Origin: Methylobacterium amylolyticum
GTDB taxonomy: Bacteria > Pseudomonadota > Alphaproteobacteria > Rhizobiales > Beijerinckiaceae
DNA: 64,000 nucleotides
Assembly (NCBI RefSeq): GCF_030700245.1
Contig: NZ_JAUYZI010000006.1
Location: forward strand, 62,001 to 126,000
Reading direction: 5' to 3'
Below the pieces are notes generated by a model. The model made no database searches and had not been told where the DNA came from. It worked only from the letters and a program-made list of their open reading frames with translations. This document shows, piece after piece, positions 39,589-40,684 of this stretch (the first letter of the stretch is position 1; every line of letters starts with the position of its first letter). The position numbers and the translations under genes were made by a program.

Positions 39589-40599
39589 ATGCCCATCCGA
39601 GTTCCGGCGACATCGCGGGCGCTGCCGCCGATCCTGACGGCGCTCGGCGTCCTGGCGCTGGCGCTCCAGCTCGGTTGGTGGCTGCCGGAGACGCTCGCGC
39701 GCGACGACCTGCGGCGGGACTCGCCGGTCTACTTCTACGCCGCCGAACGGGCGGCTTCGGGGGCGCCGCTCTACACGGCCCATCCCGGGATCGGCCCCGC
39801 CACGCCCTACTGGGCGGGCTACCCGCAGACCGAGGCCGGCTACGTCCGCTTCCTCCAGGAGTGGTTCCTCTACCCGCCGCACTTCGCCGCCGCCCTGGCG
39901 CCGCTCGCCGGCTACGGGCTGCCGGCGTTCATGAAGGTGTTCACGCTCGCAGCGCTCGTGAGCGCCTGGATCTACGCCGCCTGCCTCGCCACGCTCGCCG
40001 AGGGACGCTTGAGCCCCCGCGGCTTCCTGATCGCCAACAACCTGCTGATCGCCCTGCCCGGGACGACGACGACGATGGGCTACGGCAACGTCGAGCCGGT
40101 CCTGTGGGCGCTGTTCGGCCTCGCCCTGGTCAGCCCGAGGCTCCGGGCGGCGGCGCTGACGGTGGCCGCCTCGGTCAAGCCGTACCTCGCGTGGTTCGCC
40201 CTCGCCGCCGCCTGGGGCGAGGGCCGGCGCGCCTGGGCGGTGATGGCCGCGGTGAGCCTCGCGATCCTGGGCTTCGGCGCGTGGCGGGTCGGGGTGCCGG
40301 CCTATCTCGACTGGCTCCGGACCGTGCCGCCGGTGCTGAGCCAGGGCACGATCGCCCTGCCCAACCTGTCGCTGTCGATGCTGCCGCTCAGGCTGCTCTG
40401 GGCGACGGGCTGGCCGGAACCGTCCGGCCCGCTGCCGCCGCCCGCCGCCGCCTACCTGCTCGCGTGCAGCGTCGCCGCGCCGATGCTCGCCCTGGTCCTG
40501 CTGCGGCGGCGCTCCCCGGCGCTGCGCTTCTCGGCCTGCACGGTGGCGGCGGTGGCGTTCTCGCCCTACTGCATGCCGACCTACCTGCCGCTGGCGCGG
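39589..40599 (+). CDS. DUF2029/GT87-type integral membrane glycosyltransferase, truncated by a poly-G tract
   Basis: 337 readable codons before the frame enters a run of 40 G. Many membrane helices (from residue 15: LTALGVLALALQLGWW; later LIANNLLIALPGTTTTMGYGN, LTVAASVKPYLAWFAL, NLSLSMLPLRLLW). The helix pattern with an early Asp (RRDSPVYFYAAER) and VKPY segment fits polyprenol-phosphate-sugar-dependent mannosyltransferase-like proteins of DUF2029. Such proteins usually run beyond 400 residues, so the C-terminus is missing. The break is probably an assembly fault, so the native gene may be intact. Confidence 0.75.
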
Positions 40600-40684
40600 G
40601 GGGGGGGGGGGGGGGGGGGGGGGGGGGGGGGGGGGGGCGGGGGGCGCCGCCCCCCCCCCCCCCCCCCCCCCCCCCCCCCCCCCC
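40598..40684. other. Poly-G/poly-C tract, probable sequencing or assembly artefact
   Basis: 40 G (40598-40637), C, six G, CGCCG, then 35 C (40650-40684). A pure G run meeting its own complement is what results when two contig ends carrying artificial poly-G read tails are merged. Natural phase-variable G tracts are around 7-15 bases and have no mirrored C tract. Genes on the two sides may not be neighbours in the real genome. Confidence 0.85.

Follow-up and report, generated by a model that had tools for sequence, protein, structure and literature searches.

The window analyzed here is a 64,000-nucleotide stretch of the Methylobacterium amylolyticum genome (6,571,720 bases in 136 contigs) and lies within a contig of 186,392 bases (C93). 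Around position 40.6 kb it carries the following features:

36570 to 38423, plus strand: left syntenic block, delimited by synteny, with a 3-hydroxyacyl-CoA dehydrogenase gene and the next gene
39197 to 39481, minus strand: DUF167 (YggU family) gene, left flank (PF02594, E 2.6e-19)
39589 to 40597, plus strand: GT87 (DUF2029) glycosyltransferase gene (PF09594), 336 readable residues, its 3' end under the block that follows
40598 to 40684, no strand: G40...C35 block, very probably a read and assembly artefact in place of the true sequence, as sister blocks in the same assembly suggest
40685 to 40719, no strand: clean short spacer, reaching from the block to the oxidase stop codon
40720 to 42096, minus strand: FAD-linked oxidase gene (PF02913 and PF01565), forming the right flank; relatives keep it collinear with the left flank

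The first gene of the left block matches PF02737 and PF00725, the second has no Pfam match, and the oxidase start at 42096 was picked at the ATG of MTDAAQ. A PIN-domain gene at 38730-39164, presumably VapC-like, is matched in 4 of the 19 relative loci described below, adjoining the DUF167 gene in each; a putative antitoxin ORF may lie upstream of it.

The 87-base tract at 40598-40684 agrees base by base with the deposited record, as the initial annotation had described it, and reads G40-C-G6-C-G-CC-G-C35: 40 G residues (40598-40637), a 12-base linker of G and C only (CGGGGGGCGCCG, 40638-40649), and 35 C residues (40650-40684). With a G frequency of 0.361, about 8e-14 G runs of at least 40 are expected in 64 kb, and elsewhere in the window the homopolymers of at least 7 amount to a single G7, two A7, and one A8. 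Because runs of G and C hold no stop codons, the DUF2029 frame is not ended at the tract, and it stays open to 42354 as a spurious 921-amino-acid ORF. The gene had been called truncated, which holds in that its true end is lost in the tract, but not in the sense of a frame that stops there. A fold-back or inverted-duplication join was considered and rejected, as ∼2 kb from either side of the tract yielded only short, weak matches when compared with each other, the best with E 0.001 over 33 bases. A search of this genome with positions 40300-41000 returned, among the best 40 of 525 candidates scored, one full copy, the reversed block aligned to itself, and three weaker hits of short length (71-85% identity).

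We compared the gene order on the two sides of the tract with that in relatives. The oxidase was searched for in 59 genomes of the genus, and a copy reaching at least E 1e-150 is present in 20, this genome among them; loci of 15.8-19.9 kb were compared from the 19 others. The comparison of the left block covers these oxidase-bearing genomes, the remaining 39 having no close oxidase. In 18 of these 19 relatives, the left block (36570-38423) and the right block (from ∼40720) adjoin each other with order and orientation unchanged, although in one (L042) the second half only of the left block takes part in the collinear pair; the sole exception (L043) has the right block only. A homologue of the DUF167 gene lies between the blocks in 16 of the 19 loci, where 1-60 bases separate the end of its alignment from the oxidase alignment. 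The longest G or C run across the 19 loci is 8, and these loci also lack the GT87 gene. If the join were false, relatives with long contigs would be expected to have the flanks at separate places, but the flanks are adjacent in five collinear relatives with the locus on contigs of 5.98-6.56 Mb. Because the flanks are collinear in 18 of 19 relatives, the join at 40.6 kb is most probably one of true neighbors. The concern that any synteny claim across this position is unsafe therefore needs to be divided: order and orientation look safe and usable on this comparison, whereas the sequence content of the tract and the place where the GT87 insertion ends on the right are indeed hidden.

By its profile match, the readable part of the gene at 39589-40597 is a member of the GT87 family (PF09594), with E 5.2e-15 at residues 93-326, 56.3 bits against a curated cut-off of 25, and the profile covered in full (1-237 of 237). 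The gene looks native in composition, with 74.7% GC overall and 96.7% at third positions (the oxidase gene has 73.6% GC). No close homologue of the protein turned up among 60 other genomes (E 1e-20), 110 other genomes of the genus (E 1e-10), or 396 others from the order (E 1e-8, with up to five first-look candidates scored per genome among those listed), these searches overlapping in the genomes they cover; 37 pattern hits in genome contigs gave no confirmed homologue, and none was found in plasmids. Other members of the GT87 family are present in 10 of 13 other genus genomes searched. The gene sits between the DUF167 and oxidase genes, a place where it has no match in any of the 19 relative loci, and it looks like an insertion there; the left junction with DUF167 is clean sequence, and the right end falls within the block. 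Because the relative loci lack the gene, the sequence that the block replaces cannot be read from them, and because no close homologue was found, the missing length was estimated from other GT87 family members. In 13 genus loci, 273-329 residues separate the domain start from the stop (the strand was chosen by agreement with the frame length, and for L097 by the strand given in its match), and 244 residues (93-336) are readable from the domain start here. About 29-85 residues of the GT87 end (median ∼70) would thus be hidden, an estimate drawn from distant family members. The C terminus of the protein and any translation across the tract, including the 921-amino-acid ORF, are unusable.

The tract has counterparts in the same assembly. 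A search of this genome with 16 G in a row, which registers runs of at least 16, revealed three further blocks, at C49 from 107872 on, at C65 ∼15506-15655, and at C49 288263-288283. The last ends 31 bases before the contig end at 288314, and the other two lie inside genes:

C49, ∼107870-107959 (L047 ∼9870-9960): site 2, G/C block of ∼90 nt inside an AsmA-like gene
C65, 15506-15655 (L046): site 3, G/C block of ∼150 nt inside an HD-domain gene

Both sites were compared with the same 20 genus genomes, which were chosen and mostly oxidase-bearing, using the best match in each. The N-terminal part of the site 2 gene matches AsmA just below the Pfam cut-off (28.7 versus 29.8 bits). Its two flanks are ordered and on one strand in 20 of 20 relatives, with a gap of 68-96 nt (69 nt in 14 of the 20), a distance that was projected in the more distant loci, where the flank alignments stop short; in one relative (G007), the gene is itself split in two. 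The intervening sequences printed for these relatives have no long G or C runs. At site 3, the two gene parts are ordered and 30-48 nt (∼33 nt overall) apart in 17 of 20 relatives, versus ∼150 nt here; in L091 the spacing is 33 nt and the upstream match is weak (E 0.026), while L085 and L092 have no usable upstream match. The site 3 loci used share 49-67% protein identity, and several of the matches may be paralogues. Because relatives have run-free sequence between the same gene parts, sites 2 and 3 thus appear to be corrupted sequence between true neighbors. An artefact should be absent at the same place in relatives, should recur within one assembly, including places close to contig ends, and should have true neighbors as flanks. 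The usable relatives (20 of 20 and 17 of 20) have no such block at sites 2 and 3, and the relative loci have no G or C run above 8 at the window site; the blocks recur here, one of them near a contig end; and the flanks appear as true neighbors at the window site and at sites 2 and 3.

Beyond this assembly, 5 of the 111 genus genomes, among them this one, carry the pattern G12-N{0,30}-C12, and in the other four it lies within 255 bases of a contig end among the matches listed. The reverse order, C then G, is carried by 6 of the 111, again including this one, and neither order occurs in the 16 genus genomes shown with nine or fewer contigs. At the stricter setting, this genome alone among the 397 searched in the order has G20-N{0,30}-C20, with 19 overlapping matches, a count that fits the single window site (ten of the 19 are listed); the reverse, C20 then G20, is present in 4 of 397. 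Within this genome, G-then-C and C-then-G have 19 versus 2 overlapping matches, and the reverse order recurs in other genomes. The order of G before C was dropped as proof of convergent poly-G tails, not being specific to them (the reverse occurs in genus and order alike). In one genus genome (G087, contig C12; L112 1772-1996), a C24/G17 block adjoins a 10-N run inside the contig, which is probably a scaffold gap; at the window site, unlike there, no N is left. No literature on G/C blocks inside bacterial contigs was recognized from titles and the starts of abstracts, and we make no claim of its absence from print.

We regard it as highly likely, from these sequence comparisons, that the block is a short sequencing and assembly artefact at a gap between true neighbors. 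Counting against this view are that the window block would hide more than the blocks at sites 2 and 3, that the G-then-C order is not exclusive, with the reverse order found in other genomes, that the 19 relative loci have no GT87 gene to show what the block replaces, and that 3 of the 20 site 3 relatives lack a sound upstream match, with several site 3 matches perhaps being paralogues. The initial annotation had proposed a false contig join, in which two unrelated contig ends are overlapped through poly-G tails, such that genes to the left and right may be unrelated or inverted. Mirrored homopolymers could yield a spurious overlap of this kind, and no close GT87 homologue was found that could confirm where the insertion ends on the right. 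However, two random contig ends would hardly be found side by side and collinear in 18 of 19 relatives, DUF167 and GT87 meet in clean sequence and DUF167 adjoins the oxidase in 16 of 19, and no alternative continuation of 40300-41000 was seen in this genome among the best 40 of 525 candidates. We therefore consider a false join very unlikely; the comparison with genomes of relatives, a kind of check that had been proposed, has the blocks adjacent in 18 of 19, in five of these on ∼6-Mb contigs, and the sister blocks also appear to stand between true neighbors, so that unrelated or inverted flanks are not borne out.

A larger insertion is a somewhat better alternative, although still an improbable one: the neighbors would be true, but GT87 would be the left part of a longer insertion, with its other genes collapsed into the block. 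The absence of GT87 from all 19 relative loci is insertion-like, and the right edge is hidden. Yet at the places of the sister blocks relatives have no more than 30-96 nt, and a short-read contig should break at a gap that exceeds a library fragment in length. Least credible is that the tract is real cellular DNA, a G40/C35 near-palindrome arising, for example, by slippage expansion. Although the deposited record contains it and no stop interrupts the frame across it, the assembly has three more such blocks, in two genes that are block-free in relatives and near a contig end, and neither block order occurs in the 16 genus genomes with few contigs. It is just as hard to believe that a genuine 87-bp G/C near-palindrome in the chromosome interrupts GT87, perhaps serving as a phase-variable tract.

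An artefact at a short gap between true neighbors could arise as follows. Loss of signal on two-channel sequencers is read as G, and poly-G read tails are normally trimmed. In such instruments, G carries no label, as stated in PMC11140927. Reads from the left side would lose signal and run into false G, reads from the right side would do likewise on the other strand and appear as C on the plus strand, and an assembler or gap filler would then close a short real gap with the merged G and C tails. The hidden content is probably the last 29-85 codons of the inserted GT87 gene together with the remaining spacer. The sequencing chemistry behind the tract can only be inferred; the status of the tract as an artefact is independent of it. 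The earlier reading of the mirrored homopolymers as merged poly-G tails stands well as regards an artefact, which the sister blocks support; the merged-tail origin is an inference.

The tract would then be an ordinary assembly flaw that carries a lesson in data quality only, with no biology to explain. Blocks of this kind seem to mark short corrupted gaps, and they give rise to spurious long ORFs and broken gene models. Gene order across the blocks in this assembly seems trustworthy, at one interior site by synteny and at two by gene continuity. To discard synteny at every such block is too strict, and to trust a translation across one is wrong.

Two known kinds of flaw offer comparison. The block resembles the poly-G tails of two-channel sequencers, in which false G is called without signal and would appear as C on the far side, but differs in that the tails here apparently entered the contig instead of being trimmed. 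It also resembles a mis-filled scaffold gap, with a G/C block of wrong length and content between what are probably true neighbors; the G087 block still adjoins its 10 N, whereas the window site has none.
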